From: an uncultured Oscillospiraceae bacterium
Lineage (GTDB): Bacteria; Bacillota; Clostridia; Oscillospirales; Ruminococcaceae
Direction of reading: 5' to 3'
Assembly: GCA_900547455.1 (NCBI GenBank)
Contig: URGV01000033.1
Coordinates: forward strand, 1 to 22,417
Length of the DNA stretch: 22,417 nucleotides
A program made the translations under genes and the position numbers. Positions 3,567 through 21,915 of the stretch are shown piece after piece. Position 1 is the first letter of the stretch, and the number at the start of each line of letters is the position of its first letter. The notes below the pieces were generated by a model that saw only the letters and a program-made list of their open reading frames with translations, searched no databases and was not told the origin of the DNA.

Positions 3567-3583
3567 CGCTTAAAAAAACAAAA

Positions 3584-4105: not shown

Positions 4106-4140
4106 AAAGAAGAAATCAATTTGACTGGAGGGCATCTGCC

Positions 4141-5535: not shown

Positions 5536-5662
5536 GATAGTATAGAAAAGGATCTCCCAATCTTCAAAAAGGGAAAAGCAAAGCGGGGTGCTCGACATGT
5601 AGCGCACGGGCGACTTTGGAATTTACATCATCATTGCTGATCCAGCAAAAAGGAGTGTTTAT

Positions 5663-6124: not shown

Positions 6125-6140
6125 AACCCCTTTCGTCCAA

Positions 6141-6176
6141 AAAGGAACGCGGAAAAATTCCGCGTTCCTTTTTTTC
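6141..6176. terminator. Bidirectional terminator between two lipoprotein genes
   Basis: AAAGGAACGCGGAA (6141-6154) and TTCCGCGTTCCTTT (6158-6171) form a perfect 14-bp stem with an AAA loop and a T run on the plus strand. It ends the gene at 5663-6124 and probably also the minus-strand gene ending at 6192. Confidence 0.9.
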
Positions 6177-6191
6177 TTACCTCAATCTCTT

Positions 6192-7478: not shown

Positions 7479-7526
7479 ATATGAAATCTCCCTCTCCTGA
7501 TGAAAAATCAATCTTTGAACAAGAAA

Positions 7527-7535
7527 ATTATATCA
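7527..7535 (-). promoter_or_regulatory. Extended -10 promoter of the amidase lipoprotein gene
   Basis: Minus-strand TGATATAAT is an extended -10 (TATAAT at 7527-7532). The best -35 candidate, TTGATT at 7552-7557, is 19 bases away. The start site would fall about 40 bases before the ATG at 7478. Confidence 0.6.
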
Positions 7536-7581
7536 CCTGGAGTACACTCCCAATCAACAGAATATTGATAAAGAAAATGTA

Positions 7582-7618
7582 AAGTTCCTTTCAGGTTTTC
7601 GCACAGCGGCCGGAACTT
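7582..7618 (-). terminator. Possible weak terminator of the DUF5131 gene
   Basis: AAGTTCC (7582-7588) and GGAACTT (7612-7618) can pair around a long loop directly after the stop codon at 7619. On the minus strand it is followed by TACATTTTC, a poor T run. Confidence 0.35.
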
Positions 7619-8392: not shown

Positions 8393-8425
8393 TTCTTCCC
8401 CTCCTCGCTTCTTTCTATGGTCTTT

Positions 8426-8454
8426 ATTGTACTACGCTTTCCCTCTTTTTTCAA
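8426..8454 (-). promoter_or_regulatory. Promoter of the DUF5131 gene
   Basis: Minus-strand TTGAAA (8449-8454) and TACAAT (8426-8431) have a 17-base spacer; each differs from consensus at one base. The leader is about 28 bases. Confidence 0.78.
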
Positions 8455-8481
8455 CGCCGCACCCGGTCTTTGAACACACAG

Positions 8482-8527
8482 AAAAAGACCGACTGGCTCC
8501 CCGCAAGGGCTTGCCAATCGGTCTTTT
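8482..8527 (-). terminator. Terminator of the M18 aminopeptidase gene
   Basis: AAAAGACCGA (8483-8492) pairs with TCGGTCTTTT (8518-8527), with an inner TGGC/GCCA helix. On the minus strand a T run follows, 55 bases after the stop codon at 8583. The outer arm resembles that of the terminator at 12222-12269. Confidence 0.8.
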
Positions 8528-8582
8528 AGACAGTTTCCTTTTCACCTGCGGCAGGCAGACAAACTGCGTGCCGGACGAAAGT

Positions 8583-9896
8583 TTACTTATGGATTTCGTA
8601 GGTGCCGTCGCACTCGGCAACAACTGCGCTGTTGTAGAACGCCTCCATGCCGGCGATCATGTACCCCAGGTCAAGCACGCCCGCCGTCTCATAGCTGGAG
8701 TGCATCGCCAGCTGGGCCATGCCGATATCGACGGTGTTCAGCGAGACGTGGGAGTTTGCGATGTTGCCCAGCGTCGAGCCGCCCATGATGTCCGAGCGGT
8801 TGACAAAGTGCTGGCACGGAACATTCTGCTCCTTGCACAGCTTCTGGAAAATCGCCGAGGAAACCGCATCGGTGGTGTAGCGCTGGTTGGCGTTGTGCTT
8901 GATGACGATGCCCTCGTTTAAGAATACCAGGTTGGTCGGGTCGGTCATGCCGGGGTGGTTCGGGTGCAGCGCGTGGGCGTTGTCCGCCGACAGCATGAAG
9001 CTGGAAGCCACCGCGGTGTGGTAGTCCTCCTCGCTGCGGCCCAGGGCGGTGTTGACCCGCTTGAGCACATCGTAGAGGAAGGTGGAGTTTGCGCCCTGCT
9101 TGGTGCTGCTGCCGACCTCCTCGTTGTCGAAGATTGCGCAGACCGAAACACTTTCCTTGTTGCCGCCCTTGACAAAGGCCTTCAGAGAGGAGAAGGCGCA
9201 CTCCAGGTCGTCCAGTTTGGCGCAGGACATATACTCGTTGTGCGCGCCCCAGACCGCCGGTTTCATGCGGTTGTAGAGGAACAGGTCGGTGGAGAGCAGG
9301 TCCTCCTCCTGGACGCCGCAGGCCTCGGCAACCAGCTTGTCAAAGGTGTCCTTGGAAGCGGCATCGCCGTACAGCGGCAGCAGGTTGACCTGCGGGTTAT
9401 ACTTCATGCCGTCGTTGGCGGTGCGGTCCAGATGGATGGCCAGGTTGGGGATCACCACCAGGTCGCGGTCGATGTTGACCAGTTTGGTCTCTACCCCCTT
9501 GTCGGTCTTGACCAGCGCGCGGCCTGCCACCGACAGCGGGCGGTCAAACCAGGTGGAGAAGATCATGCCGCCGTATTTTTCGGTGTTGAGCTGCACATAT
9601 TTGCCCTTGACCTGCTGCTCCGGGTTGTCCTTAATCTTGAAGGTCGGGGAATCGCTGTGGCTGGCGATGATGTGGAAGGAAGCAAAGTCCTTGCCCGGCA
9701 CCTTGAAGGCGATGATGGAGGAGAGGTTGCGGGTGACAAAATATTTGCCGCCCTCCTGCAGCTGCCATTTTTTATTTTCAAACAGCTCCTCAAAGCCCTC
9801 CTCTACCAGTGTCTTTTTGACATTGTCGATGACGTGGAAGCAGCTTGGCGATTTTTCGATAAAGTCAAACAGTTCCTGCACTTGTTCTAAAGCCAT
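8583..9896 (-). CDS. apeB: M18-family aminopeptidase (aspartyl aminopeptidase type)
   Basis: The 437-residue protein matches the length and motif order of M18 zinc aminopeptidases: His80 in IIASHSDSP (with Asp82 beside it), Asp229 in SCAKLDDLE, Glu259-Glu260 in IFDNEEVGS, Asp305 in LSADNAHA and His399 in AMHSSYE. These are the expected metal ligands and the catalytic glutamate, so the enzyme should be active. M18 enzymes remove N-terminal acidic or neutral residues from peptides in the cytoplasm and form large dodecamers. ATG 9894-9896 follows AAAGGAT (about 9906-9911). It is transcribed alone from a perfect consensus promoter at 10001-10029 with a leader of about 100 bases. The symbol apeB is the name used for clostridial family members and is given by family only. 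Confidence 0.94.
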   Translation of the reverse strand: MALEQVQELFDFIEKSPSCFHVIDNVKKTLVEEGFEELFENKKWQLQEGGKYFVTRNLSSIIAFKVPGKDFASFHIIASHSDSPTFKIKDNPEQQVKGKYVQLNTEKYGGMIFSTWFDRPLSVAGRALVKTDKGVETKLVNIDRDLVVIPNLAIHLDRTANDGMKYNPQVNLLPLYGDAASKDTFDKLVAEACGVQEEDLLSTDLFLYNRMKPAVWGAHNEYMSCAKLDDLECAFSSLKAFVKGGNKESVSVCAIFDNEEVGSSTKQGANSTFLYDVLKRVNTALGRSEEDYHTAVASSFMLSADNAHALHPNHPGMTDPTNLVFLNEGIVIKHNANQRYTTDAVSSAIFQKLCKEQNVPCQHFVNRSDIMGGSTLGNIANSHVSLNTVDIGMAQLAMHSSYETAGVLDLGYMIAGMEAFYNSAVVAECDGTYEIHK

Positions 9897-10000
9897 CAGA
9901 AATCATCCTTTCGTTTTCATCGGTATTTCCGTATTCTGCATAAAAATAAGGTCGCGTGGCCCCGCACCCTCCGTATAAATTGCCGGGGCTCTTCCCCTTC

Positions 10001-10029
10001 ATTATAAAAGGTTTCCTACCCGATGTCAA
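10001..10029 (-). promoter_or_regulatory. Perfect consensus promoter of the M18 aminopeptidase gene
   Basis: Minus-strand TTGACA (10024-10029), 17 bases, TATAAT (10001-10006). The leader of about 98 bases contains a GCCCCG/CGGGGC pair but no riboswitch that I can recognise. Confidence 0.87.
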
Positions 10030-10042
10030 CCGCCACCGGATG

Positions 10043-10081
10043 CAAAAAAGCGCCTCCTTCCCTTTGCCGGGAAGGAGACGC
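10043..10081 (-). terminator. Terminator of the NPETG surface protein gene
   Basis: On the minus strand GCGTCTCCTTCCC and GGGAAGGAGGCGC form a 13-bp stem with one G-U pair, followed by TTTTTTG. It sits 28 bases after the stop codon at 10109 and 14 bases upstream of the next promoter's -35. Confidence 0.88.
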
Positions 10082-10108
10082 ACCTGATTTCATCGAACTG
10101 ATTTGTGC

Positions 10109-11287
10109 TTATTTTCTCTTTCTGAACAGAACAGCTCCAGCCGCTGCGGCTGCAACCGCGCCCGCTGCCGCAAGGCCTACAAAGTCCTCGGCGCCGGTCT
10201 CCGGGTTGACTTTACCGGACTGGTAGTCGTTGCTGCCGGAAACACTGCCGGTCTGCTGGCTGGACTCCTGGTTGGACTGGCCCTCATTGGAGACGCCGCC
10301 GTTCTGGGTTGTCTGATCCTGGGAAGGCTGCTGCGGCTGAGAGACAAAGCTCTCGTCCACCACGGTGCCGTCGGCGATCTCCTTGTCGGTCAGCACAAAG
10401 CGGCCCAGATTCTTGGTCTCGAAGGAAACGGTCTCGTTGTCCGCATCGACGGTGGCGTCGATCTTCTCCAGCACGCCCCTGAGGTAGCGGTAGACATGGA
10501 AATTGCCGCCAAAGTCCTCCATCACCTCGGAAACATCGATGGTCATGGTGCCGGTGAAGTCGAAGGCCGGGCCGCCCGGGAAGGAAACGTACATGAAGTT
10601 CTGGTCCTCAAACTTGGAGGATACCTCCCGGATGGCGCGCTCGTTGTAGAGCATATTGACCGCCTCCTGTCCGGAGACGCGCACCTCGTAGGTCCACATG
10701 CCGTTGGTGAAGGTCACCTTGCCGCCGTCCACATACTCGTCCAGCGCCTCAAACTGCTTGGTGCTGATGACCGGGGTGGCGGACTCGACAAAGACATACT
10801 CGCCGTCCTTGGCCGCTTCCAGCGCCTCGTCGCTGATGGTGGGGTAGCCGACAGTCAGATCCGCGTCGACGCTGCCGACCACCTTGCCGTTGGAGCGTTT
10901 GACCGCCTTGATGACGCCCTCCACCTCATCCTGAGTAGTGGGCCAGCCGGCTTCGGTGGTGACCTCCAGCTGGTAAGCGTCGTTCTCCTCCTCAACCTCG
11001 AAGGATGCGATGGAGGAGTTCTCGTCCTTGACCTCGGCGCGCAGGCGCAGCTCGTCCAGATGCTCGTCGGTCAGAGGAGCATGGGTGCCATCAATCTGCT
11101 CGATGTACAGCGGGTAAACGTAGGTCTCACCCGGCAGCAGCAGCTGGTCAAACTTTTCCTCGCCGAAAGAGAGCTTGATCTGCTCGTCGGAGGTGACGTT
11201 AACCGCCTGCGCCTGCTGCGCGAACGCGGTGACGCTCATGGTGGACAGCGCGCAGGCTGCCAAAAAGATAGATACAAATTTTTTCAT
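10109..11287 (-). CDS. Cell-surface protein with NPETG sortase-type anchor
   Basis: The 392-residue product has a signal peptide (MKKFVSIFLAACALSTMSVTAFA), an acidic extracellular region of about 300 residues, a Gln/Ser/Asn-rich stalk (about residues 310-355), then NPETGA at 361-366, a hydrophobic Ala/Gly-rich segment and the tail RKRK. This is the layout of a sortase substrate, with NPxTG replacing LPxTG. The extracellular part is rich in predicted beta strands and includes a segment (YLRGVLEKIDATVDADNETVSFETKNLGRFVL) that resembles the last repeat of bacterial surface modules, but I recognise no named domain or ligand. The ATG at 11285-11287 is preceded by AGGAGG (11297-11302). No sortase gene is in the window. 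Monocistronic. Confidence 0.88.
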   Translation of the reverse strand: MKKFVSIFLAACALSTMSVTAFAQQAQAVNVTSDEQIKLSFGEEKFDQLLLPGETYVYPLYIEQIDGTHAPLTDEHLDELRLRAEVKDENSSIASFEVEEENDAYQLEVTTEAGWPTTQDEVEGVIKAVKRSNGKVVGSVDADLTVGYPTISDEALEAAKDGEYVFVESATPVISTKQFEALDEYVDGGKVTFTNGMWTYEVRVSGQEAVNMLYNERAIREVSSKFEDQNFMYVSFPGGPAFDFTGTMTIDVSEVMEDFGGNFHVYRYLRGVLEKIDATVDADNETVSFETKNLGRFVLTDKEIADGTVVDESFVSQPQQPSQDQTTQNGGVSNEGQSNQESSQQTGSVSGSNDYQSGKVNPETGAEDFVGLAAAGAVAAAAAGAVLFRKRK

Positions 11288-11347
11288 TGAAGATTGCCTC
11301 CTGATTTTTAAAAATTACTTTTGTCTTTTTCCCTGGGTCCTGAGGCT

Positions 11348-11376
11348 ATTATAGTGGCTGTATTCTCTTTTTTCAA
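11348..11376 (-). promoter_or_regulatory. Promoter of the NPETG surface protein gene
   Basis: Minus-strand TTGAAA (11371-11376) and TATAAT (11348-11353) have a 17-base spacer. The leader is about 55 bases. Confidence 0.82.
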
Positions 11377-11866
11377 CCGGTTTTTTCTGGCAGCCCATAC
11401 AGATTTTTTGTTTTATTTATCTAATTTTTCAATCAAAAACGGTGTTATCATAGTCAATTTGTAAGATTTCTAATCTTTGCCGCTGCTATCTCCTTTACCC
11501 TTCCAGCTTTGTCCGCCTGCTGCTGGAAGGATTGCCAGCGCGCTGCCCGGGCTGACAGATCTTTCCGTCGGAAGATTTTGCGCCCACCAGAAAAATTCCC
11601 GTCAAAATCCCCGCCTTTTGGCCCTTCCTCTCTCAAACCGCCGCGGAAAGGATATACAGTATATGCCGCCGTCCCCGTTTTGGTCCGGGTTTTGCCGCAC
11701 CTTTTTTGCCCGCTGCCATACACTATGGATGGGGGCTTTTCCATCAGCAAGGACAGACGGGAGCCCAGGGCCCCCGCAAAAAATTTTTGAAAGATGTTTA
11801 ACGCCCGCCTCCCATGGTTACAATAACAGTGAAGTTCAAACAAACCAAATCGCGGAGCGTGATACT
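11377..11866. other. 490-base gene-free region upstream of mazF
   Basis: I see no convincing gene here: the open frames on both strands have no ribosome site and an unnatural residue mix. An extended -10-like TGTTATCAT lies at 11443-11451 (+), which would give mazF a leader of about 410 bases; a closer alternative is TACAAT at 11819-11824 with a poor -35. A 13-base perfect palindrome, ATATACAGTATAT, is at 11652-11664. No MazE/EndoAI-type antitoxin frame is visible. Confidence 0.5.
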
Positions 11867-12214
11867 GTGAAACGTGGAGATATTTATTACGCGGACCTGA
11901 GTCCAGTGGTCGGTTCAGAACAGGGTGGTGTCCGGCCGGTACTTATCGTTCAAAACGATATTGGCAATCGCTACAGCCCCACCGTGATTGCGGCGGCCAT
12001 CACCAGTCAAACCGAAAAGGCAAAGCTGCCCACCCACATCGAGCTGCACTCGCACAGCTGCGGCTTGTCCAAAGATTCGGTCGTGCTGCTGGAGCAGATC
12101 CGCACCATCGACAAGCGCCGCCTGCGCGAGAAGATGGGCACCCTGGACGCCGACTCGATGTCCCAGGTCAACAAGGCTTTATCAATCAGTTTCGGTCTTG
12201 GAAAAGGCCGTTAG
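11867..12214 (+). CDS. mazF: MazF/EndoA-type endoribonuclease toxin
   Basis: The 115-residue product, starting [20 protein letters not shown] after the first codon, is very close in motif order to Bacillus EndoA (NdoA): [17 protein letters not shown], the TSQ region, KLPTHIEL, and [17 protein letters not shown]. EndoA cleaves mRNA at short U/A-rich sites and is neutralised by a MazE-like antitoxin. The catalytic Arg of RPVL and the Thr of AAITSQ are present, so the toxin should be active. GTG 11867 was chosen because it matches the family's N-terminus and has GGAG (11854-11857) nine bases ahead; the much longer upstream extension has no family-like sequence. No antitoxin gene lies immediately upstream, where Bacillus has it. 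A strong terminator follows, so the gene is monocistronic. Confidence 0.92.
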
Positions 12215-12221
12215 CTGCAGA

Positions 12222-12269
12222 AAAAAGACCGATCTGCCGCTTTGAAAAAAGCGCGCAGACCGGTCTTTT
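12222..12269. terminator. Bidirectional terminator between mazF and the glycosyltransferase gene
   Basis: An A run, AAAAGACCG, an inner TCTGC/GCAGA and GCTTT/AAAGC helix, then CGGTCTTTT with T residues on both strands. It lies 10 bases after mazF and about 50 bases after the stop of the minus-strand glycosyltransferase gene. Confidence 0.85.
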
Positions 12270-12320
12270 GGTCTTATCGTAAAAATAGTATGCGGTTGTT
12301 TTTGTTTTCCCTCGGGGAAA

Positions 12321-13592
12321 TTACTTCATCTCCTCGGCAGACTTTGCCACGCTGTGGATGATCGGTGTCCACTGCACATTTTTGAACAGGGCCACAATCG
12401 AGATCGGGATATAGGTAAAGATAAACAGCGGGAAGGTGAAGGTGTACAGCACCTTTTTGTAGGCCGGGGCCTTGATCTTCTTCCACTCGGTGATGGTGGT
12501 CAGCAGACCCATTGCAAAAAGGATAATGTAAAAGTTGACAAAGGAGAACAGCAGCATTCTGCCCGCCAGCGCAACCAGCGTGTTCATGTAGTGCGGCTGG
12601 AAGATAGCCGTCAGCAGGAAAATTGCGTTGAGCACCATGCACCCCAGCGACAGCAGCGAGGCCGGCGCGATGGTCATGAGCATATCGTAGCAGGCGAAGG
12701 GGTGGTTTTTGTTGTGGATCAGGCGGGAAGCCAGCGCTCTGCCATACTTCCACATGACCTGATAAAAGCCCTTGGACCAGCGCAGGCGCTGCGCCCAGGA
12801 CTGCTGGAAGGTGGTCGGCTGCTCATCGTACAGCACAGCGGTGCCGCAGTAGCCGATGCGCTCCCCTTCCAGGGCGTTGACCACCGAGAACTCGATGTCC
12901 TCGGTCAGCAGGTGGAACTTCCAGCCGCCGTATTTCTGCACAATCTTGTTGCTGATCATAAATCCGGTGCCGGAGATGGCACAGTTGGTGCCCAGCATCA
13001 TGCGGGCGTTGTTTAAGTACTTGGCTTCGCGCAAAAACCACAGCGAATAGCCCGCTGTGATCCAGTTGGTCGCGTAATTTTTGGAGTTGCGGTAGCTGGT
13101 GATAATCTGATATCCCTGGCTGAAGACCGCGTTCATCTCATCGATGTAGTGCGGGTCGAGCAGATTGTCCGCGTCGAAAACAAAAAAGGCGTCATAGTAA
13201 TCGTTGCCGTAATCCTGCGCGATGCGCCGGAAAGCAAAATCCAGCGCGTAGCCTTTGCCGACCTCCTGCTTGTTGAACCGCTCGTACACCTTTGCCCCCA
13301 GCTGACGCGCGATCCCGGCAGTGTCGTCGGTGCAGTTATCCGCCACCACAAAAATATCCACCAGTTTGCCCGGATAGGTCTGGTTCTGGATGCTGCGAAT
13401 CAGGTTACCGATCACCATGCTTTCGTTGCGGGCGGCAATCAGCACGCCGTACCGGTGAAAGATGCAGGGCAGATTTTGTTTTTGTTTATTCCTCTTGAAA
13501 AGTACAACCGCGACATAGACTACCTGATACAGATAACACACCGTCAGGACGATAAAGACCAACAGGTTAATCCGTAAAATCCAATCTTTCAT
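12321..13592 (-). CDS. Membrane glycosyltransferase family 2 (BcsA/HasA-type processive)
   Basis: The product of 423 residues has an N-terminal membrane helix (about residues 8-33), a cytoplasmic GT-A domain and at least three C-terminal membrane segments from about residue 300. Numbering from GTG 13595, the GT2 signature residues are Asp86 (VADNCTDDT), the DxD motif Asp141-Asp143 (FDADN), TED at 231-233 and the QRLRW motif at 269-273, as in cellulose- and hyaluronan-type synthases. It is therefore probably a processive polymerase making a surface or extracellular polysaccharide; the sugar is not readable. ATG 13590-13592 was preferred to the adjacent GTG because GGAGAG (13601-13606) is 8 bases ahead. 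The gene stands alone; the flippase at 15285-16691 could serve the same pathway, but this is only context. Confidence 0.9.
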   Translation of the reverse strand: MKDWILRINLLVFIVLTVCYLYQVVYVAVVLFKRNKQKQNLPCIFHRYGVLIAARNESMVIGNLIRSIQNQTYPGKLVDIFVVADNCTDDTAGIARQLGAKVYERFNKQEVGKGYALDFAFRRIAQDYGNDYYDAFFVFDADNLLDPHYIDEMNAVFSQGYQIITSYRNSKNYATNWITAGYSLWFLREAKYLNNARMMLGTNCAISGTGFMISNKIVQKYGGWKFHLLTEDIEFSVVNALEGERIGYCGTAVLYDEQPTTFQQSWAQRLRWSKGFYQVMWKYGRALASRLIHNKNHPFACYDMLMTIAPASLLSLGCMVLNAIFLLTAIFQPHYMNTLVALAGRMLLFSFVNFYIILFAMGLLTTITEWKKIKAPAYKKVLYTFTFPLFIFTYIPISIVALFKNVQWTPIIHSVAKSAEEMK

Positions 13593-13648
13593 CACAATAA
13601 CTCTCCATCTCTTCTACAGTGTATGCGTAATACTACGCGTTTCTATAG

Positions 13649-13676
13649 AGTATAGCACAATTATTGCAAAAAACAA
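13649..13676 (-). promoter_or_regulatory. Promoter of the glycosyltransferase gene
   Basis: Minus-strand TGCTATACT is an extended -10 (TATACT at 13649-13654) with TTGTTT (13671-13676) 16 bases upstream. A small dyad GCGTA-ATAC-TACGC (13625-13638) lies in the leader. Confidence 0.6.
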
Positions 13677-13811
13677 TACAAGAACTTTAAAAGATTTTTA
13701 CTTTTTACTCTTTTCAGCTTTTTGGAATAAATCCTTCGGTTTTCCGGAAAGAATAATATCAAAAATCAACAACGGAAAAACCATTTTTTTGTCAGATATT
13801 TCAAAAGCAGA

Positions 13812-14288
13812 TCAGGATTGCTGCTTGCGCCAGTGGTGATAGCGCCGCCGCAGCTGCATTTTCTGGAACAGATGCACCAGCGAAGAGACGATCAAAACCC
13901 CCACCGCCAATGCTCCGGCGATGGCAAAGGTGTGGATGCCGGTCTCGATAAACTGGGAGGTCTGCCCGGAAACGCAGTACTCCATCGTGTAGTAGATGCC
14001 GCCTCCCGGCACCAGCGGCAGGATGCCGATGGTCAAAAAGCCGGTGACCGGGGCTTTGAACACCCGCGCCATCACCTCGGCGTAGGCCGAGACAACGATG
14101 GTGGAGATCAGGTACTGGGCCAGATCGCTGCCCAAAAAGGAGAAGGCCAGATAGAACACCCAACTGAGCATGCCGCCGGTGGCCGCCGCAATCATGTGGG
14201 ACAGCTTGTGAAACTTAAAAATAAAGCAGAAAGAGAAGCAGGCCAGAAAGGTATAGAAAAAAACAGGGATATTTTCCATTATCTGCAA
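13812..14288 (-). CDS. Threonine/serine exporter small subunit (ThrE_2 domain)
   Basis: The 158-residue, strongly hydrophobic protein carries about five membrane segments and the ThrE_2 (DUF3815) hallmarks: the GLLPLVPGGG-like sequence ILPLVPGGGIYYTMEYCV after the second half begins, and a positive C-terminus (RRRYHHWRKQQ). In ThrE_1/ThrE_2 pairs the two proteins together replace the single ThrE exporter of threonine and serine. The start is TTG at 14286-14288, because AGGAGGT (14297-14303) lies 8 bases ahead, whereas the in-frame ATG at 14279 would be 17 bases away. The ribosome site is placed just past the stop of the upstream gene, giving 15 bases between genes and likely translational coupling. 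Confidence 0.85.
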   Translation of the reverse strand: MQIMENIPVFFYTFLACFSFCFIFKFHKLSHMIAAATGGMLSWVFYLAFSFLGSDLAQYLISTIVVSAYAEVMARVFKAPVTGFLTIGILPLVPGGGIYYTMEYCVSGQTSQFIETGIHTFAIAGALAVGVLIVSSLVHLFQKMQLRRRYHHWRKQQS

Positions 14289-14303
14289 CGCCAGTCACCT
14301 CCT

Positions 14304-15071
14304 TTAAATTCCCGGAAAAAAATAGCGCAGGGTGGAGATGGCAAGACCGGCGCCCAGCGCGATGCCTACCGCCACCATCAGCGACTCGACCAGCTTGATG
14401 ATACCCGCAATCAAATCGCCGCCCAAAATGTCACGCATGACGTTGGTGATGGCGATGCCCGGAACCAGGTTCATCAGTGTGCCGATAATCATCTTGTCGT
14501 AGTTCACCGTCCAGCCCATCGCGGTGGTCCAGACCGACAGCCCCGCCACCAGTGCGCTGCCGAAGATGTTCTGGAAAAAGCTGTTGGTGCCAAAATTGCC
14601 CAACAGCGACAGCAGCAAAAACAGAAGAATGCCGATGAAGAAGGAGGCAAAGCTGTCTTGGAAATTGCCGCCGTAAAACAGGGTGAAGGAGGCCGAGATG
14701 GACGCGGTGAAAAAAAGCCGTGTCCAGAAGGAGTAGTCCTTTTTCCCCATGATGGCGTCCAACGAAGCGCGGATCTGCTCAAGCGGCGGCCGCTCGGTGC
14801 AGACGTGGCGGCAGAGGTTGTTGAGCTTATCGATTCGGTCAAAATCCAGCGAGGAGGAGCGGTTGCGCTTGATGCGGGTGAGTGCGTGGCCGTTTTCGTC
14901 ATTGACGGTGACGATGATGCAGGAGGGGATGGAAAAAACATCCACCTCCGCAAATCCGTAAGCTGCCAGCATCCTTTTGATCGATTCTTCCACCCGGTAG
15001 ATCTCCGCGCCGCTCTGCAGCAGCCGCCAGCCGATCTCGGTGGTGATTTCCAGCAATTGGTCGTTGTTCAT
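14304..15071 (-). CDS. Threonine/serine exporter large subunit (ThrE_1 domain)
   Basis: The 255-residue protein has an N-terminal soluble region with the ThrE_1 (DUF1212) signature LLQSGAEIYRVEESIKRML and a conserved-looking IIVTVNDENGHALTRI strand, followed by about five membrane segments with the typical LMNLVPGIAITNVMRDILGGDLI stretch. The family exports threonine and serine. ATG 15069-15071 is used: AGAGGG (15083-15088) precedes it and the probable transcription start at about 15125 lies inside the longer open frame, which rules out its first ATG. It is the first gene of the ThrE pair and is divergent from the flippase, sharing a 215-base intergenic region. Confidence 0.87.
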   Translation of the reverse strand: MNNDQLLEITTEIGWRLLQSGAEIYRVEESIKRMLAAYGFAEVDVFSIPSCIIVTVNDENGHALTRIKRNRSSSLDFDRIDKLNNLCRHVCTERPPLEQIRASLDAIMGKKDYSFWTRLFFTASISASFTLFYGGNFQDSFASFFIGILLFLLLSLLGNFGTNSFFQNIFGSALVAGLSVWTTAMGWTVNYDKMIIGTLMNLVPGIAITNVMRDILGGDLIAGIIKLVESLMVAVGIALGAGLAISTLRYFFPGI

Positions 15072-15131
15072 CCCGTTATCATCCCTCTTTATATCTGCCT
15101 GATCTGATGTTCCCATCTGAAAACATGTTGT

Positions 15132-15140
15132 ATTATAACA
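15132..15140 (-). promoter_or_regulatory. Extended -10 promoter of the ThrE operon
   Basis: Minus-strand TGTTATAAT is an extended -10 (TATAAT at 15132-15137). The -35 position holds no good match. The start site would be near 15125. Confidence 0.6.
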
Positions 15141-15215
15141 CATTCCCCTCCAATTTCCTACTCCTTTTTCTCCAAATTCTTTGCCTCGGCCGCCATTCCT
15201 TTTTTACACAAAAGG

Positions 15216-15224
15216 TGGTATAAT
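15216..15224 (+). promoter_or_regulatory. Extended -10 promoter of the flippase gene
   Basis: TGGTATAAT, an extended -10 with TATAAT at 15219-15224. A perfect 12-base palindrome GGCGGCGCCGCC (15252-15263) follows in the leader. Confidence 0.6.
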
Positions 15225-15284
15225 AGAAAAAGTCGCAGCGGCACACCACCAGGCGGCGCCGCCAAAGCCATCAACGGGAGCGTT

Positions 15285-16691
15285 TTGATTTTGAACAAAT
15301 ACTGGAAGCTGATATCGAATACCCTGATCTTTGCCATCGGCACCTTCAGTTCCAAGGTGCTGGTCTTTTTCCTGATGCCGCTGTACACCTCGGTGCTCAG
15401 CGAAGCCGAGTACGGCACCGTCGACCTGATGGTGCAGATCGGCAATTTTCTGCTGCCTTTAGTCTCCTGCGGCATCATCAACGGCATCATCCGCTTCGGT
15501 CTGGACAAGTACTACAAGAAAAAGGACGTCTTTACCACCGGCTTTGTGACCATCCTGGGCGGCTTTGGCGTGCTGCTTTTATTGGAGCCGCTGCTCTCCC
15601 GACTGCCCTATATGGGCGAAAACACCCTGCTGATCTACATCTTTGTCCTGATGTCCTCGCTGCGCTCGCTGTGCTCGCAGTTTGTGCGGGCCAAGGGCTA
15701 CGTCAAGCTCTACGCCCTGGACGGCCTGCTCTCCACCGCCACCACCATCTTCTTCAACGTGCTGTATCTGGTGGTCCTCAAGTGGGGCATCAACGGCTAC
15801 ATCCTGGCGATGGTTTCGGCCGATACCCTCTCCACCATCTTTCTGTTTTACATCGCGGGGCTGCGGCACTACCTGCACCTGCGCGGGCTCAACCGCCGGA
15901 CCTCCAAGGAGATGCTGCGCTACTCCATCCCCCTGATTCCGAACTCAATCTTCTGGTGGGTCAACAACATGGCCAGCCGCTACCTCATCGCCTTCTTTTT
16001 GGGGGAGGAGCTCAACGGCCTGTTCGCCGTCTCCAACAAAATCCCCACCGTCATCGTGCTGATGTCCAACATCTTTATGGACGCCTGGCAGATGTCCGCG
16101 GTCAGCGACGTGCCGCAAAAGCGCGCGCAGTTTTTCAGCCGCGTCTTTCTGTGCTATCAGGCGCTGCTGTGCACCGCGGCTTCGGGGCTGATTTTGTTCT
16201 CCAAGGTCATCACCAGCATTCTGGTGGCCGACTCCTACTACAGCTCCTGGAAATATATCCCGCTGCTGCTGATCTCCACTATCTTCTCCTGCATGTCCAC
16301 CTTTTTGGGCAGCGTGTACATGGTGGAGAAAAAGAGCATGCTCAACTTCATCACCACCGGCGCGGGCGCGGTGCTCAACGTGGTTTTAAACCTGCTGTTC
16401 ATCCCCTCGATAAAGGTCAACGGCGCGGCGCTGGCCACCCTGATCAGCTATATGGTGGTCTTTGTGCTGCGCGCCATCGATACCCACCGCTTTATCCCCA
16501 TGCGCTTTTCCCCAACGCGGCTTGTCTTTAACACGGTGGTGCTGCTGGCGCAGGCGGTCATCATGATCTTTGAGATCAAGGGCTGGATTCTCTTTGAGGC
16601 GGCGCTGACCCTGCTGATGATCATCGCCAATCTCAGCGCGCTGTGGGCCACCGCGCGCAAGGTGCTGTTTTCCCGCGCGCGGGAGAACTGA
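15285..16691 (+). CDS. Polysaccharide flippase (Wzx/MATE-like, MOP superfamily)
   Basis: The product of up to 468 residues has about 14 predicted membrane segments and the MOP-superfamily start NTLIFAIGTFSSKVLVFFLMPLYT followed by SEAEYGTVDL, the pattern of polysaccharide-transport (oligosaccharide repeat-unit flippase) proteins. Such proteins move lipid-linked sugar units across the membrane. The start is a TTG in either reading: 15285 has GGGAG (15276-15280) only 4 bases ahead, and the second TTG at 15291 has a spacing of 10, so the start is uncertain by two codons. No polymerase or other capsule gene is adjacent; the nearest glycan gene is the glycosyltransferase at 12321-13592. The end is followed by a terminator acting mainly on the opposite strand. 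Confidence 0.85.
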   Translation: MILNKYWKLISNTLIFAIGTFSSKVLVFFLMPLYTSVLSEAEYGTVDLMVQIGNFLLPLVSCGIINGIIRFGLDKYYKKKDVFTTGFVTILGGFGVLLLLEPLLSRLPYMGENTLLIYIFVLMSSLRSLCSQFVRAKGYVKLYALDGLLSTATTIFFNVLYLVVLKWGINGYILAMVSADTLSTIFLFYIAGLRHYLHLRGLNRRTSKEMLRYSIPLIPNSIFWWVNNMASRYLIAFFLGEELNGLFAVSNKIPTVIVLMSNIFMDAWQMSAVSDVPQKRAQFFSRVFLCYQALLCTAASGLILFSKVITSILVADSYYSSWKYIPLLLISTIFSCMSTFLGSVYMVEKKSMLNFITTGAGAVLNVVLNLLFIPSIKVNGAALATLISYMVVFVLRAIDTHRFIPMRFSPTRLVFNTVVLLAQAVIMIFEIKGWILFEAALTLLMIIANLSALWATARKVLFSRAREN

Positions 16692-16718
16692 GGTTTTCCC
16701 TCCGGTTGCAAAGCCGGC

Positions 16719-16770
16719 AAAAAAAACACCCTGTCCCCCGCCACTTGAAAGGATGGCGGTCGGACAGGGT
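16719..16770 (-). terminator. Terminator of the BlaI-like gene
   Basis: ACCCTGTCC pairs with GGACAGGGT, with an inner CCGCCA/TGGCGG helix. On the minus strand it is followed by eight T residues (16719-16726), so it mainly ends the BlaI-like gene. For the flippase gene it is a poor terminator because no T run follows on the plus strand. Confidence 0.8.
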
Positions 16771-16845
16771 TATTCATGTGCAGAGGTATTTCCCACGCTG
16801 TTTTATCTTTCAAAAGCTTTTACCATCGCACCATGTCGTTTGGAG

Positions 16846-17211
16846 TTAGCGATGATATTCCTCTACTGCTTTTTTCAGCTCAGCCAACTGCTGCTCGTCG
16901 ACGGACTCTCTGGAAAGGAAGGAAAGGATCATATCCTTGGAGGAACCCGCGAAAATCCGGTTGCACAGATTTTCCAGCTCGGACTGCTGAACCGCCTCTT
17001 TGGTGACCAGCGGAGTGACGATGAAGCCAGGCTCCTGTCTTTCCAAAGCGCCGCGGAGAGTCAGTCTTTTGATTACAGTGTAGGTGGTATTTTTCTTCCA
17101 ATGAAACGCATCCTGGGAATATGCTGCCAGAGCAGAGGCTGAGATCGGAGCATGTTCCCAAATATACTCCATCAATGGGTATTCCGCTTCAGAAATTTTG
17201 ACACAATTCAT
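16846..17211 (-). CDS. BlaI/MecI/CopY-family winged-helix repressor
   Basis: The 121-residue product matches the BlaI/MecI layout: SEAEYPLMEYIWEHAPISASAL at the front, the recognition helix region WKKNTTYTVIKRLTLRGAL with the conserved NTTYT, and a C-terminal dimerisation tail with the ESVDEQQLAELKKAVEE helix. In staphylococci the repressor is cleaved after a BlaR1 sensor protease signals beta-lactams; CopY members sense copper. Neither a BlaR1-type sensor nor a CopY Cys-x-Cys tail is present here. ATG 17209-17211 is preceded by AAAGGT (about 17220-17225). The likely target is its own upstream region, which has two dyads. Confidence 0.87.
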   Translation of the reverse strand: MNCVKISEAEYPLMEYIWEHAPISASALAAYSQDAFHWKKNTTYTVIKRLTLRGALERQEPGFIVTPLVTKEAVQQSELENLCNRIFAGSSKDMILSFLSRESVDEQQLAELKKAVEEYHR

Positions 17212-17225
17212 CTCAACACAACCTT

Positions 17226-17279
17226 TCTAAGATAAAATGTAAAAACCTTCTCACTAAAATAAGTCTACCATCTTAGATG
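17226..17279. promoter_or_regulatory. Dyads upstream of the BlaI-like repressor gene
   Basis: TCTAAGAT (17226-17233) and ATCTTAGA (17270-17277) are exact inverse copies 36 bases apart; the second is also part of an 11-base palindrome CATCTTAGATG (17269-17279). They flank the AT-rich stretch where the minus-strand promoter must lie (a TTTTAC/TAGACT candidate is weak). Autoregulatory sites are inferred, not shown. Confidence 0.4.
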
Positions 17280-17433
17280 CCGTCTGTCAATCCGAAAAGC
17301 AAAAACCTTTAAAAATGTTTACAAATCAACCGCATTTTTTTGTTTTCTTTTCGTCAGACTTTCACTCTTTGGACAAAGACGGCGCCTTCCCCTTTGTTTT
17401 TGCGGACGACGGACAGGCTCATTCCTCACAATA

Positions 17434-17991
17434 TCACTTGCACTTTGCGAACAGCTGCACCCAGTAGTAGCTGCCGTCCTTGTCCTTGGCGCGGCCAAAT
17501 CCGACCTGCTCAAAGTTTTCTCCCAGGATGTTTGCCTTGTGCCCTTTGGAGGCCATCCAGGACTTCATGGTGGAGGCGACGGTGTCCTGCTCCTCGTTGA
17601 TGTTTTCTCCCCACCAGGAATAGCTGACGCCCTGGTCGTCCATTGCCGTGCGGGAGGCTCTGCCGTCCGGTCGGGTGTGGCTGTACTTTTTCTGGCATTC
17701 CTCTGCGCGCACCTGGGCGGCCTTGCAGAGCGCAGTGTCCAGCTCAAGCTCGGCAAGGCCGGCTGCCTTGCGCTCCTTGTTGACGCTCTCCAGCATCTGC
17801 TGCTGCCACTTTGCAGTCTCTTCCTCGGTTTCCTTGACGTTCTTTTTGATAACCTTGCGCTCCGACTTTACCTGCTGCTGGACGCTGGCTGACGGCTGGC
17901 CCGGCCTGCCCAGCGCCGCAAAGGCTGTGGTCGGCATGCAGATCAACATCATTGCGGCGGCGGCCATGGCCGCAAGCTGCCTTTTATTCAT
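17434..17991 (-). CDS. Secreted CAP-domain protein (YkwD/SCP type)
   Basis: The 185-residue product has a signal peptide (MNKRQLAAMA..., ending TTAFA at about residue 25), a short Lys/Glu-rich, probably coiled linker (about 40-60), and a CAP domain with the expected motifs in order: MLESVNKERKAAGL, SHTRPDG, WGENIN and GHKANILGENFEQVGFG. CAP proteins in spore-forming and other Clostridia are extracellular, with no single established activity. The mature N-terminus reads ALGRPGQPSAS, matching ALGKPG of the protein at 1224-2204. ATG 17989-17991 was preferred to the adjacent GTG because AAGGGGAG (17998-18005) lies 6 bases ahead. Monocistronic, with its own promoter. Confidence 0.9.
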   Translation of the reverse strand: MNKRQLAAMAAAAMMLICMPTTAFAALGRPGQPSASVQQQVKSERKVIKKNVKETEEETAKWQQQMLESVNKERKAAGLAELELDTALCKAAQVRAEECQKKYSHTRPDGRASRTAMDDQGVSYSWWGENINEEQDTVASTMKSWMASKGHKANILGENFEQVGFGRAKDKDGSYYWVQLFAKCK

Positions 17992-18089
17992 CACAATCTC
18001 CCCTTATTTAGAACCGTTCACAAAATATTTTCTTTCCGGAATTGCTTTCACTGTAGCATAGTAGTAAAATAAAGTAAGGCCTTTATTTT

Positions 18090-18118
18090 ATTATAATAGA
18101 TTTGCTCTGTTTTTACAA
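18090..18118 (-). promoter_or_regulatory. Promoter of the CAP-domain gene
   Basis: Minus-strand TTGTAA (18113-18118) and TATAAT (18090-18095) are separated by 17 bases. The leader of about 90 bases shows no structure I recognise. Confidence 0.72.
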
Positions 18119-18193
18119 GAGCCTTTTCCCTAAATTTTCTATGTTATTCTGCCAATTTTGGATGGTCCTATTCCATCCAGTCAGGAGGTTTTT

Positions 18194-19732
18194 ATGCTGT
18201 ACCAAAAAAATGCGCTGCAACACTTTTCGTTTGCGGAATCCCCTCTCTCCAAAGAGGAGAAAAAGGAGGAGCTGCGCCGCCTGTCGCAGCGGATGGAAGC
18301 GCTGCAGCTTTCTGTCAAGCAAAACGATCTGCCGGTCATCGTGCTGGTGGAGGGCTGGGGCACCTCCGGCAAGGGCAGCCGCATCGCCGCCATGATCCGT
18401 CAGATGGACCCCCGCTTTTTCCAGGTAGTTTCCACCGAGGCGCCCACCGCCGAGGAGAAGGCCCGCCCGTTTTTGTACCGGCACATGAAGAAGATCCCGG
18501 AAAACGGGAAATTTCTGTTTCTCGATTCCGGCTGGATGGACCAGACGGTGCGCGAGCGGCAGAGCGGTCAGCTTGATGACCAGGACTACCAAAGACGGCT
18601 GGAGGAGATCCGCGTCTTTGAGCGGCAGCTTTTTGACAACGGCTACCTGCTGGTCAAGCTCTTTCTGCACATCGGCAAAAAGGAGCAGCACCAGCGCATC
18701 CAGAGCCTGCTGCACGACCCGGACACCGCCTGGCGGGTCAGCGAGCACGACCGCTGGCAAAACGAACACTATGAACAGAGCCTGGAGGACTTTGAGCAGT
18801 ACCTCGACGCGACCAGCCTCCCCTTTGCTCCCTGGCACCTGATCGACTCCACCCACCGCAAACAGTCGGAGATCGACTGCCTGCACGCGCTGTGTGCCGC
18901 CATCGAGGAGGCGCTTGAGCAAAAGGCCGACCATTGCTGGCCCCCGCTGCACCGGGACCCGGCCTTTAACCCGCTGGACCAGCAGTTTCCACTGCAGCCC
19001 ATCGAGCAGCTCTTCCAGGTCAAGCTCGGCCAGCAGATGAGCCGCAAGGAATACAAGCAGCAGCTCAAACACTACCAGGAGCGGCTGGCCGACCTGCACA
19101 ACCAGATTTACCGCTGGAAGATTCCGGTGGTGCTGGCCTATGAGGGCTGGGACGCGGCCGGAAAGGGCGGCAACATCAAGCGGATTGCCGGCGCGCTCGA
19201 CCCGCGCGGCTACGAGGTGGTGCCCATCGCCTCCCCCAAGCCCTACGAGCTGGCCCGCCATTATCTGTGGCGGTTTTGGGAAAAGGTCCCCAAGGCCGGA
19301 CACATCGTCATCTTCGACCGCACCTGGTATGGCCGGGTGATGGTGGAGCGGCTGGAAGGCTTCTGCACCGAGCGCGACTGGCAGCGTGCCTACACCGAGA
19401 TCAACGAGTTTGAGCGCCAGCTGACCGACTGGGGCGCGGTGCTGCTCAAATTCTGGATTCAGATCGACAAGGACACCCAGCTCCAGCGCTTTGAGGAGCG
19501 CCGGGACAACCCAGAGAAGCGCTGGAAGCTCAGCGACGAGGACTGGCGCAACCGGGAGAAGTGGGACGAATACGAGCAGGCCATCGACCAGATGCTGCAG
19601 CGCACCAACACCAGCTACGCGCCCTGGCACATTGTCGAGTCCAACTGCAAATACTATGCCCGGATCAAGACGCTGCGCTTGCTGACCGAGGCGCTGGAGG
19701 AGGCGGTGCGCCTGCGGCGCAGCGCTCGCTGA
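18194..19732 (+). CDS. Two-domain PPK2 polyphosphate:nucleotide phosphotransferase
   Basis: The 512-residue protein contains two PPK2 P-loop domains in tandem. The C-terminal domain has the full signature EGWDAAGKGG (317-326), DRTWYGRVMVER (375-386) and the ERR lid. The N-terminal domain has EGWGTSGKG (53-61) but a changed Walker-B region (DSGWMDQTVRER, 111-122) that lacks the DRxWY core. Tandem PPK2 enzymes (class II, polyphosphate:AMP phosphotransferase) transfer phosphate from polyphosphate to AMP; in studied members the second domain carries the activity. The start is ATG 18194, 5 bases after AGGAGG (18183-18188), rather than the longer frame at 18158. No ppx/ppk partner is adjacent. The gene is followed by an 800-base gene-free region. 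Confidence 0.92.
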   Translation: MLYQKNALQHFSFAESPLSKEEKKEELRRLSQRMEALQLSVKQNDLPVIVLVEGWGTSGKGSRIAAMIRQMDPRFFQVVSTEAPTAEEKARPFLYRHMKKIPENGKFLFLDSGWMDQTVRERQSGQLDDQDYQRRLEEIRVFERQLFDNGYLLVKLFLHIGKKEQHQRIQSLLHDPDTAWRVSEHDRWQNEHYEQSLEDFEQYLDATSLPFAPWHLIDSTHRKQSEIDCLHALCAAIEEALEQKADHCWPPLHRDPAFNPLDQQFPLQPIEQLFQVKLGQQMSRKEYKQQLKHYQERLADLHNQIYRWKIPVVLAYEGWDAAGKGGNIKRIAGALDPRGYEVVPIASPKPYELARHYLWRFWEKVPKAGHIVIFDRTWYGRVMVERLEGFCTERDWQRAYTEINEFERQLTDWGAVLLKFWIQIDKDTQLQRFEERRDNPEKRWKLSDEDWRNREKWDEYEQAIDQMLQRTNTSYAPWHIVESNCKYYARIKTLRLLTEALEEAVRLRRSAR

Positions 19733-19770
19733 TGTTGGCCCTTCGGGCCCGCAGCCCCTGCCTTCTTTGC

Positions 19771-19789
19771 GAGGGGGCGTTGCCCCCTC
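19771..19789. repeat. Palindrome GAGGGGGC-GTT-GCCCCCTC
   Basis: A perfect 8-bp stem with a 3-base loop, 38 bases after the PPK2 stop codon. No T run follows, so it is not a classical terminator. Nested smaller dyads (GGGAGC-ACA-GCTCCC, 19804-19818) follow directly. Confidence 0.75.
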
Positions 19790-19882
19790 TGCACTCCCTT
19801 TGTGGGAGCACAGCTCCCGAAGCAAGTCGCCAGACTTGGCTTCTACCCTCAGAGTGGAGGGCGCTCCGCCCCTCCGACCCCG

Positions 19883-19912
19883 GGTGACTTTCCCGTCGCG
19901 GGGAAAGTCACC
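19883..19912. repeat. 12-bp perfect hairpin
   Basis: GGTGACTTTCCC (19883-19894) pairs perfectly with GGGAAAGTCACC (19901-19912) around GTCGCG. It abuts a second hairpin, CCAAAGG-GCGC paired with GCGC-CCTTTGG (19911-19941). Such adjoining GC-rich palindromes are typical of dispersed intergenic repeats. Confidence 0.8.
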
Positions 19913-19970
19913 AAAGGCGCGCCAAGGGCTGCGCCCTTTGGAATCCCCCTGGGTTTCAGCAAAACTTTGG

Positions 19971-20037
19971 GAACCTGACGCAGTCAGGTTCGAAGGATGG
20001 AACGCAAGCCCTATTAAACTGGAAGCTATAACCATCC
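19971..20037 (+). ncRNA. 5' part of the candidate structured RNA
   Basis: A perfect 9-bp hairpin GAACCTGAC-GCA-GTCAGGTTC (19971-19991) is followed by GGATGG (19995-20000), which pairs with CCATCC (20032-20037) and encloses a conserved-looking single-stranded segment (about 20001-20031). The two helices could stack. Whether this belongs to the same RNA as 20073-20267 is an inference. Confidence 0.35.
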
Positions 20038-20072
20038 CTTACCGCCCTTTTCGCGCTCGCTTACGCATCACG

Positions 20073-20267
20073 CCGGGCTACCTTCTGCCTTCAACCTAGA
20101 TGGATTTGCCACTTTGAGCGGGTGGGCAAACTGGCCTATATTTTCTCCCCAAGATCTACCGGAGTCACACTCTCAGCTGTCAATCCGTGGCGCGGTAGGT
20201 GGATTGCTCCCGAGGATGCCGCAGTTTCTAAACCTCCACAACCAATACCGCTAGGGCAGAAGGCCGG
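20073..20267 (+). ncRNA. Candidate structured RNA domain with long-range helix and pseudoknot
   Basis: CCTTCTGCC (20081-20089) pairs with GGCAGAAGG (20255-20263), 9 bp, extended after a bulge by CCGG/CCGG (20073-20076 with 20264-20267). Inside are a hairpin TTTGCC/GGCAAA (20105-20110 with 20125-20130) and an H-type pseudoknot at 20154-20206. One helix needs a G-U pair on the plus strand (A-C on the minus), which weakly favours plus-strand transcription. No known RNA family can be named with confidence. Confidence 0.4.
20154..20206 (+). other. H-type pseudoknot
   Basis: ATCTACCG (20154-20161) pairs with CGGTAGGT (20193-20200), one G-U; CAATCC (20181-20186) pairs with GGATTG (20201-20206). The partners interleave, so the helices form a pseudoknot, and their right arms are adjacent, so they could stack end to end. 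Confidence 0.5.
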
Positions 20268-20274
20268 GGGATCA

Positions 20275-20319
20275 AAGGGGGCAGAAGTTAAAGCAGAACG
20301 CTTTTACTTCCGCCCCCTT
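20275..20319. repeat. Long imperfect hairpin
   Basis: AAGGGGG pairs with CCCCCTT, then an internal loop, then GAAGT-T-AAAGC with GCTTT-T-ACTTC, 17 pairs in total around the loop AGAAC. Confidence 0.7.
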
Positions 20320-20331
20320 CGCTGGGGGTCA

Positions 20332-20368
20332 AGACTTCTTCGAAGTCTAGGACCAGGAGGTTCCTGGT
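20332..20368. repeat. Two adjoining perfect 7-bp hairpins
   Basis: AGACTTC-TTC-GAAGTCT (20332-20348) and ACCAGGA-GGT-TCCTGGT (20352-20368). A third, GCAGCAT/ATGCTGC (20378-20393), follows at once. Confidence 0.7.
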
Positions 20369-20407
20369 GAGTCTTTCGCAGCATTCATGCTGCTAGTAGG
20401 CCGGGGC

Positions 20408-20453
20408 TTGGGGCGGAGCGCCCAAATGGTGGGTCGCAGGAGCCAGCGGCTCC
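20408..20453. repeat. Further short palindromes near the glyS stop
   Basis: TTGGGGCG-GAG-CGCCCAA (20408-20425, one bulge) and GGAGCC-AGC-GGCTCC (20439-20453). They lie 80-125 bases past the glyS stop codon and may help to end its transcript, though no T run follows on the minus strand. Confidence 0.6.
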
Positions 20454-20532
20454 GCAGAAACTCCCCGGGGTTGGAGGGACGGTGTGCCCTTCTCGCAAAA
20501 TCCCTCGTCCACGGCAGTGGGTCAAAAGTTTT

Positions 20533-21915
20533 TTAGAAGCGAACCTTCTTAATCAGGTAGTGGACCAGATCCTTCATCGGGACGCGCTCCTGCGCCATCG
20601 TGTCGCGGTCGCGGACGGTGACGCAGCCGTCTTCCTTCGACTCAAAGTCGTAGGTGATGCAGAACGGGGTGCCGATCTCGTCCTGACGGCGGTAACGCTT
20701 GCCGATCGAGCCGGCCTCGTCGTAGTCAACCATGAAGTGGTCGCTCAGCTCCTGGTAGAGCGCGGTGGCCTCCTCCGACAGTTTCTTGGAGAGCGGCAGG
20801 ACGCAGGCCTTAAACGGCGCCAGAGCCGGATGCAGATGCAGCACCACGCGGGTGTCGTTCTTCTCTGCGTCCACAACCTCCTCGTCGTAGGCGTCGCACA
20901 GGAAGGCCAGAACCACGCGGTCCGCACCCAGCGAAGGCTCGATGCAGTACGGGATGTAGTGCTCGTTGGTTTCCTGATCGAAGTATTCCAGCGGCTTGCC
21001 GGAGTGCTCGCTGTGGCGGCTCAGGTCGTAGTTGGTGCGGTCTGCAACGCCCCACAGCTCGCCCCAGCCGAATGGGAACAGGTATTCAAAGTCGGTGGTT
21101 GCGTTGGAGTAGAAGGCCAGCTCTTCCTTCTCGTGGTCGCGCAGGCGCAGGTTCTCGTCGGTCATGTTCAGATCCAGCAGCCACTTGTGGCAGAAGTCCT
21201 TCCAGTACTGGAACCATTCCAGGTCGGTGCCCGGCTTGCAGAAGAACTCCAGCTCCATCTGCTCAAACTCGCGGGTGCGGAAGGTGAAGTTTCCGGGGGT
21301 GATCTCGTTGCGGAAGGATTTGCCGATCTGGCAGATGCCGAACGGCAGCTTCTTTCTGGTGGTGCGCTGGACGTTTGCAAAGTTGACAAAGATGCCCTGC
21401 GCGGTCTCCGGGCGCAGATAGATCTGGTTTTTAGCGTCCTCGGTGACGCCTTGGAAGGTCTTGAACATCAGATTGAACTGACGGATGTCGGTGAAATTGG
21501 TGCTGCCGCAGTTCGGGCACTTGATGCCGTGCTCCTTGATGAAGTCCATCATCTGCTCGTTGGACCAGCCGTCGGCGGATTTGCCTGTGTAGTCCTCGAT
21601 CAGCTTGTCGGCGCGGTGGCGGGTCTTGCAGTCCTTGCAGTCCATCAGCGGATCAGAGAAGCCGCTGACGTGGCCGGTCGCAACCCAGACCTCCGGGTTC
21701 ATCAGGATGGCGCTGTCCAGGCCGACGTTGTAGGGGTTCTGCTGAACAAAGCGCTTCCACCAGGCGCGCTTGACGTTGTTTTTCAGCTCCACACCCAGCG
21801 GGCCGTAGTCCCAGGTGTTGGAAAGACCGCCGTAAATTTCGGAACCGGCAAAAATGAAGCCTCTGCCTTTGCACAGGGCGACGATTTTTTCCATCGTTTT
21901 CTCGGTATTGTTCAT
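20533..21915 (-). CDS. glyS: Glycyl-tRNA synthetase, homodimeric (alpha2) type
   Basis: The 460-residue protein is a class II synthetase of the alpha2 (GRS1-like) type, not the alpha2beta2 GlyQS type. It shows the [23 protein letters not shown] opening, a zinc-type CxxC pair (Cys93/Cys96 and Cys133/Cys136), motif 2 [25 protein letters not shown], motif 3 [15 protein letters not shown] and a C-terminal anticodon-binding domain (about 355-460). It charges tRNA-Gly in the cytoplasm. ATG 21913-21915 is preceded by AGGAGG (21927-21932) at 11 bases. No T-box leader is present upstream. Its promoter overlaps a perfect dyad (22034-22053), which is unusual for this gene. Confidence 0.96.

Follow-up and report, generated by a model that had tools for sequence, protein, structure and literature searches.

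The 800-base intergenic stretch that holds 20073-20267 of the DNA analysed here (22,417 nt from an uncultured Oscillospiraceae bacterium, hereafter the window) raises the question of what this region is. An earlier note had proposed an independent structured RNA containing a possible pseudoknot switch, or the RNA of a lost mobile element. Two genes converge on the stretch from its two sides, a two-domain PPK2 gene (18194-19732, + strand), with Pfam PPK2 matched in two stretches, and glyS (20533-21915, - strand). The window GlyS was 95% identical to that of an uncultured Negativibacillus genome (G001), 94% to that of G005 and 93% to that of G002, and the repeat described below belongs to a bacterium close to Negativibacillus. 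The window PPK2 protein was 70, 68 and 69% identical to its best relatives in G001, G005 and G002, respectively, compared with the 93-95% of GlyS next door. Very probably, the region belongs to a dispersed modular repeat.

The helices named in the earlier note were present as letters. They are the 9-bp Watson-Crick helix (20081-20089 with 20255-20263), the 6-bp hairpin (20105-20110 with 20125-20130) and, of the interleaved helices, the 6-bp pairings 20192-20197 with 20246-20251 and 20181-20186 with 20201-20206; the full 8 bp reported for the latter (20181-20188 with 20199-20206) requires two G-U pairs. The motif TACCG was found at all three places given for it (20040-20044, 20157-20161 and 20246-20250). 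The chance occurrence of this nested set had been judged low, but comparable helices were found in about half of the shuffles, with the features scored singly and not as a complete set. Of 200 dinucleotide-shuffled versions of 19733-20532, 50.5% contained one or more 9-bp Watson-Crick helices with a span of 100-260 nt (mean 0.66), as did 22% of 23 800-nt tiles of 1-18400. When the domain itself was shuffled 200 times, 58.5% of the shuffles had interleaved 6-bp and 6-bp Watson-Crick helices, and so had 63 of 100 195-nt tiles from the rest of the window. Folding gave the same picture, the domain being no more stable than its own shuffles on either strand (+ strand z -0.35, 68 of 200 shuffles equally good; - strand z +0.54, 142 of 200). 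The wider 19945-20345 folded slightly better than its shuffles (+ strand z -1.82, 4 of 100; - strand z -1.78, 5 of 100), and includes a 20-nt inverted repeat at 20275-20319, to the right of the domain. No family reached its threshold here in the Rfam 15 search that had been proposed as a check; the window gave no match at gathering thresholds apart from tRNAs, and the ten matches within 19730-20540 at E up to 5 were all under the gathering scores of their own families. That no coding frame explains the domain holds as far as tested. The frame at 20032-20367, the longest in the core region, had no match in a Pfam search, copies match in more than one frame, and a coding gene was rejected on the missing Pfam match and on the shift of frames between copies.

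Read outward from the domain, positions of approximately 19857-20425 make up a single copy of a non-coding repeat built from modules, in which a core is bracketed by two inverted hairpin modules. An imperfect outer left hairpin (19857-19875), with equivalents in relatives, precedes the left terminal module (19878-19951, - strand), which is inverted relative to the right one. This module contains a terminal hairpin with a 12-bp stem (19883-19912; loop GTCGCG at 19895-19900), an AAAG spacer with the linker GCGCGCC (19913-19923) and a middle hairpin (19922-19941), and the CGCG of its loop is complementary to the CGCG of its linker at 19918-19921. A C-run (19945-19949, + strand) can pair with a G-run (20266-20270, + strand), and together they would close a core of 316 nt (19950-20265) that contains the domain of the earlier note; the same closure was read in G001 and G005 copies. 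To the right of the core are a long hairpin (20275-20319) with 20-nt arms, complementary at 18 of 20 positions, the right terminal module (20336-20406, + strand) and an outer right hairpin (20408-20425). The terminal hairpin of the right module (20378-20393) departs from the rest of the family in its stem, and by reading its loop TTCA forms three Watson-Crick pairs and one G-T with the linker TGAG at 20368-20371. Further hairpins to the left of the element (19754-19855) recur elsewhere with the left module, as in the spurious open reading frame P0028 (95% identical over 19754-19948), and the mosaic thus extends past these limits.

The modules were recognised with a covariance model (R2) for which 41 modules from G001, G002 and G005, and no window sequence, served as input. 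R2 matched the left module at E 1.1e-14 (55.4 bits) and the right module weakly (20336-20405, E 7.1e-4), and its next-best match in the window (E 0.13) overlapped the left module on the opposite strand. A further model (R1), whose terminal stem is one column off on each side, gave E 1.3e-10 for the left module and 2.1e-4 for the right (20336-20406). The corrected stem partners of R2 raised the scores of modules from other genomes from 36.8 to 42.3 bits (L215), 34.8 to 41.1 (L216), 30.9 to 39.8 (L220) and 27.8 to 33.0 (L225).

Copies in G001, G002 and G005 were found by reading to share one order from the end inward. The outer hairpin comes first, followed by a short CG-rich linker and the terminal hairpin; next are the CTTTG spacer with its linker, the middle hairpin and a further hairpin, and innermost is a core closed by the C-run and G-run, with the left end being an inverted version of the right end. 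A search with one G001 copy returned 59 matches in G001, 16 in G002 and 28 in G005, several of them per copy and some of them palindromic echoes. The core measured 113-117 nt including the closing runs in 18 of 19 distinct G001 copies (the 187-nt copy was dropped from the core alignment), a few tens of bases in G005 by reading, and 316 in the window, which shows that cores differ between species. Among 86 typed modules in 48 relative loci, with three dropped as overlapping, 25 of 35 adjacent pairs had the -+ arrangement of the window with 73-284 nt between them, nine were +- and one was ++. A module was present 3' of glyS in G002 (L208), and G005 had no module at the corresponding place (L198). 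Several G001 copies (L164, L167, L174) also had a second hairpin-rich stretch (GACCGCACCTC ... GTGCGGTC, then a GAGAATGG/CCATTCTC-type hairpin) inside or beside them. By eye, the copies at L193 and L197 (G005) and L208 (G002) seem to start right after terminator-like hairpins with T-runs. Clusters of copies were observed in G005 on contig C2 (approximately 281-314 kb) and contig C1 (approximately 924-954 kb), and two of the C2 groups resemble repeated blocks, having equal match scores.

The strong structural signal was observed in these ends and not in the middle of the core. In the 41-module alignment, hand-chosen from 64 modules for variety, all 123 of the 123 cells in the three loop-linker columns were paired. 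In 52 of them both partners had changed; no cell had a change in one partner alone, and none was G-U. Because module types descend, or are swapped, as whole blocks, such cells are not independent. Among all R1 matches, with no pairing demanded, 33 of 39 unique loop-linker pairs (drawn from 85 of 86 matches) matched over at least 4 bases and six fell short, and the mean run was 3.77 against 2.49 (sd 0.14) for shuffled pairs, the highest of 2000 shuffles being 3.10. A wider set gave 39 matches out of 50 with 12 loop tetranucleotides (CGCG, CGAA, CACG, TGCG, TGTG, TACG, TGAA, TGTA, AACG, CGAT, CCAG, GCGT) and a mean of 3.76 against 2.30, and 57 unique hairpins, some of which are not modules, gave a run of 3.51 against 2.29. 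Hairpins collected by pattern from other genera gave a weaker match that still exceeded shuffles, 3.08 against 2.60 (13 unique; 23 of 5000 shuffles), several being without a match. In modules of other genera, the same rule was observed with other tetranucleotides, CCAG/CTGG in L225 and ATCG/CGAT in L215 and L220. The loop-linker pair, which played no part in choosing the modules, is stronger evidence than the stems. At L190 (G005, 292-367), the linker is accompanied by the reverse complement of its customary terminal loop, as though the hairpin tip had flipped over.

The stems were also well paired, although their purity is partly a product of selection. For 87 distinct R2 matches, in an alignment fitted to the structure and with stems partly chosen for pairing, 94.1% of cells were paired compared with 73.7% (sd 0.7) after shuffling and at most 62.4% with slid partners, the covariation score was 0.533 compared with 0.195 (sd 0.009), and 99.3 and 99.4% of the terminal stem cells were paired, with two G-U. 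In a set of 79 modules admitting at most two mismatches per stem, the terminal stem had 864 Watson-Crick pairs, one G-T, one A-C and one other, and the middle stem had 728, five, one and three, respectively; module alignment A3 admits at most one stem mismatch. Further standard pair types were not in excess in the 41-module alignment (28 against 29.9 shuffled) and were in excess among the 87 matches (40 against 31.9). A covariation scan of the G001 core gave a best score of 6, where column-shuffled alignments (40 shuffles) averaged 4.8 and reached 11. A GTAGAG/CTCTAC helix in this core that seemed by eye to covary was rejected, as the alignment fold had two-sided change in one of 14 pairs.

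Noncoding repeats are frequently mispredicted as proteins, and we therefore sought the core through its open frame at 20032-20367. The protein search returned 39 proteins at E up to 0.01, 19 of which entered protein alignment A1 together with the window frame to make 20 rows. A six-protein profile matched at least 304 predicted proteins at E up to 0.001, all regarded as spurious, with 120 of the 304 matches listed; many copies of the core are known solely in this form. Repeats of this sort are easily mistaken for genes or RNAs. The copies sit on differing flanks. P0001 carries a core near-identical to that of the window but a different upstream joint, and a different stretch replaces the window hairpin at 20275-20319, an exchange of blocks. 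Individual database proteins aligned to the window in two or more frames, which indicates that the conserved thing is the DNA. The DNA homologue search for the core in other genomes, also proposed earlier, found no real copies. Window-type core DNA matched three of 297 family genomes over 22-25 bases only, the window frame had one match (38% identity, internal stop) in 345 order genomes, and a 23-mer had three matches in 396 family genomes, each with three mismatches; all were taken as chance. A phage or plasmid origin was rejected, with no match by DNA or by protein P0023; among viral contigs searched with four patterns and one profile, 19 stretches matched a pattern and none was confirmed.

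We used 137 of these proteins in a codon-based test of the named helices, which back-translates peptides to possible codons and judges each pair alone, and is therefore permissive, its failures being firmer than its passes. Random position pairs at equal spacing passed in 3.6 to 17% of cases, and conservation alone also favours the real pairs. The chance-level 9-bp helix (20081-20263, + strand) was fully pairable in 15 of 29 copies, the 6-bp hairpin (20105-20130, + strand) in 83 of 122, and the two arms of the putative pseudoknot (20181-20251, + strand) in 37 of 72 (20181-20186 with 20201-20206) and six of 40 (20192-20197 with 20246-20251), the latter arm having at least one impossible pair in the other 34. 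The core helices named in the earlier note are probably incidental to the element, and the case illustrates how folding one sequence can suggest an RNA that its copies do not support. What had been suggested as a lost mobile element fared better, in that the domain forms the core of a repeat that is dispersed and whose structured ends are inverted relative to each other; the clear covariation lies in those ends and outside 20073-20267.

Loop-linker pairs that change only on both sides, elements whose modules face either way and hairpins that are exchanged as blocks suggest that selection or copying acts on DNA, and the near absence of G-U pairs and the turned-round loop of L190 are read in the same way. 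We consider it slightly more probable than not that the core forms the spacer at the centre of an intergenic repeat that is non-autonomous, ends in hairpins and resembles a MITE or BIME, and we are evenly divided on a mobile mechanism at the DNA level. Under such a mechanism, a recombinase acting in trans would recognise the two folded single-stranded modules, the loop-linker pair would serve as the address of the end, and the recombinase would move or exchange the element between intergenic sites. We infer the movement, the enzyme and the role of the loop-linker pair from the pattern described above. More tentatively, the terminal modules may represent a new kind of mobile-element end, in which a swappable tetranucleotide pair of loop and linker would form a pseudoknot in single-stranded DNA and act as the recognition code of a recombinase, with families of different codes coexisting within one genome and found across several genera of the order. 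The loop-linker covariation is in any case a testable rule, as it predicts which loop suits which linker and what a recognising enzyme needs.

Several observations weigh against mobility. The search for a transposase gene that shares these ends gave none (Y1_Tnp was absent from G002, and 27 Y1_Tnp loci elsewhere had no module better than E 0.3), the adjacent pairs include nine +- and one ++ among 35, the right module of the window has its unfamiliar stem and weak score, and the six short loop-linker pairs and the several unmatched hairpins of other genera depart from the rule. An immobile origin, in which recombination and template switching between copies have maintained and rearranged an ancient patchwork of intergenic hairpins, would account for the block exchange between P0001 and the window, the turned-round loop of L190 and the very regular stems. 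We regard it as rather improbable, since it sits poorly with the same rule being written in other tetranucleotides in other genera (L225, L215, L220), with the -+ arrangement of 25 of 35 pairs and with the finding that 13 of 197 order genomes conserve both the CTTTG spacer and the CTTTC stem. The modules might instead act as RNA, namely as pseudoknotted hairpins at 3' gene ends that end transcription or protect messages and have spread by being useful, an explanation that we think unlikely. It is consistent with the strong covariation of stems and loop-linker pairs, with an element lying between convergent genes in the window and with some copies being beside terminator-like hairpins by eye. 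RNA helices usually allow more G-U pairs, however, and almost none were found in the loop-linker pairs and terminal stems; the modules also stand in both orientations within an element, and the one terminator-like site found in the window element was in the core (1.3 expected), with none at the modules.

We find it very improbable that an independent structured RNA, or a switch, makes up the core and lies between repeat modules by chance. The named helices do exist, the 9-bp helix could be kept in about half of the copies that were informative for it (15 of 29), and one promoter-like site was found at 20114-20142 on the + strand. The pair 20084/20260 is T-A in the window, T.G as implied by the peptides P0040 and P0041 and C-G as implied by P0004, a path that would suit an RNA of the + strand and hints at a weak RNA case for the 9-bp helix. 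These points are set against helices at chance level, no excess stability, no Rfam match, a pseudoknot arm that 34 of 40 copies could not form in full, and covariation that stays within the range of column shuffles in the G001 core, which is shorter than that of the window and not alignable with it. The independent RNA with a pseudoknot switch put forward in the earlier note is thus disfavoured on stability, on Rfam and on the pseudoknot arm alike.

The preferred reading, a non-autonomous and hairpin-ended repeat, has partial counterparts among known systems. REP/BIME elements, associated with TnpAREP/RAYT, are inverted pairs of intergenic palindromes seen as non-autonomous elements (PMC8266576, PMC6006769). 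The present repeat is similar in that its many dispersed copies are palindromes between genes and frequently come as inverted pairs that flank a variable linker. It departs from REP/BIME in that each end has two hairpins and that loop and linker covary, and the 41 aligned modules have a CTTTG or CTTTC spacer in place of GTAG/GTGG at 0-2 nt 5' of the hairpin. The ends of IS200/IS605 elements are subterminal DNA hairpins, in which the pairing of a tetranucleotide with a short sequence gives specificity (PMC6006769), and recognition of folded single-strand ends exists in IS200/IS605 and REP systems. The guide at the 5' foot of an IS200/IS605 hairpin pairs with the cleavage site, whereas the pairing seen here is of hairpin loop with linker, and no IS200-type gene was found beside a module.

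MITEs are short and non-coding, have inverted ends and are dispersed between genes. The window element resembles them in its two inverted terminal modules around a short stretch with no gene (no Pfam match), but its ends are two-hairpin modules, and no parent transposon was found among the Y1_Tnp loci, the sole transposase type tried. Stem-loop repeat families that are likewise short and non-coding, and whose inverted-ended copies lie scattered between genes, are described in PMC2267715, and we recognised no description matching this repeat in the literature searched. The search for Y1_Tnp, which pools TnpAREP and IS200 TnpA, found genes in five of eight genomes and none in G002. The longest open frames at the 27 loci, taken with flanks of up to approximately 1.5 kb, were 178 aa, and no TnpAREP gene was found beside a module. 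On contig C1 of G058 there were 13 Y1_Tnp (IS200-type) matches with identical scores.

R1 at E up to 1e-4 matched five of 197 family genomes, with at least 24 matches each in G001 and G005, two in G058 and one each in G104 and G009; this count may miss weak matches owing to the displaced stem column, and the genomes are samples of larger groups. The pattern CTTTG-N4-CTTTCTT-loop-AAGAAAG was found in 13 of 197 order genomes and in one of 138 class genomes, which was G001 itself, and its reversed form in none of the same 197 and 138. An Rfam search of 12 relative loci returned only a guanidine-I riboswitch (L215 1305-1407, - strand, G058), located beside the module at 1501-1577. In other genera, a related hairpin (GAAGTTTTCTTTGCTTACTTTCTT...) directly adjoins what looks like 5S rRNA (L226, L229) and a tRNA (L227, L228).
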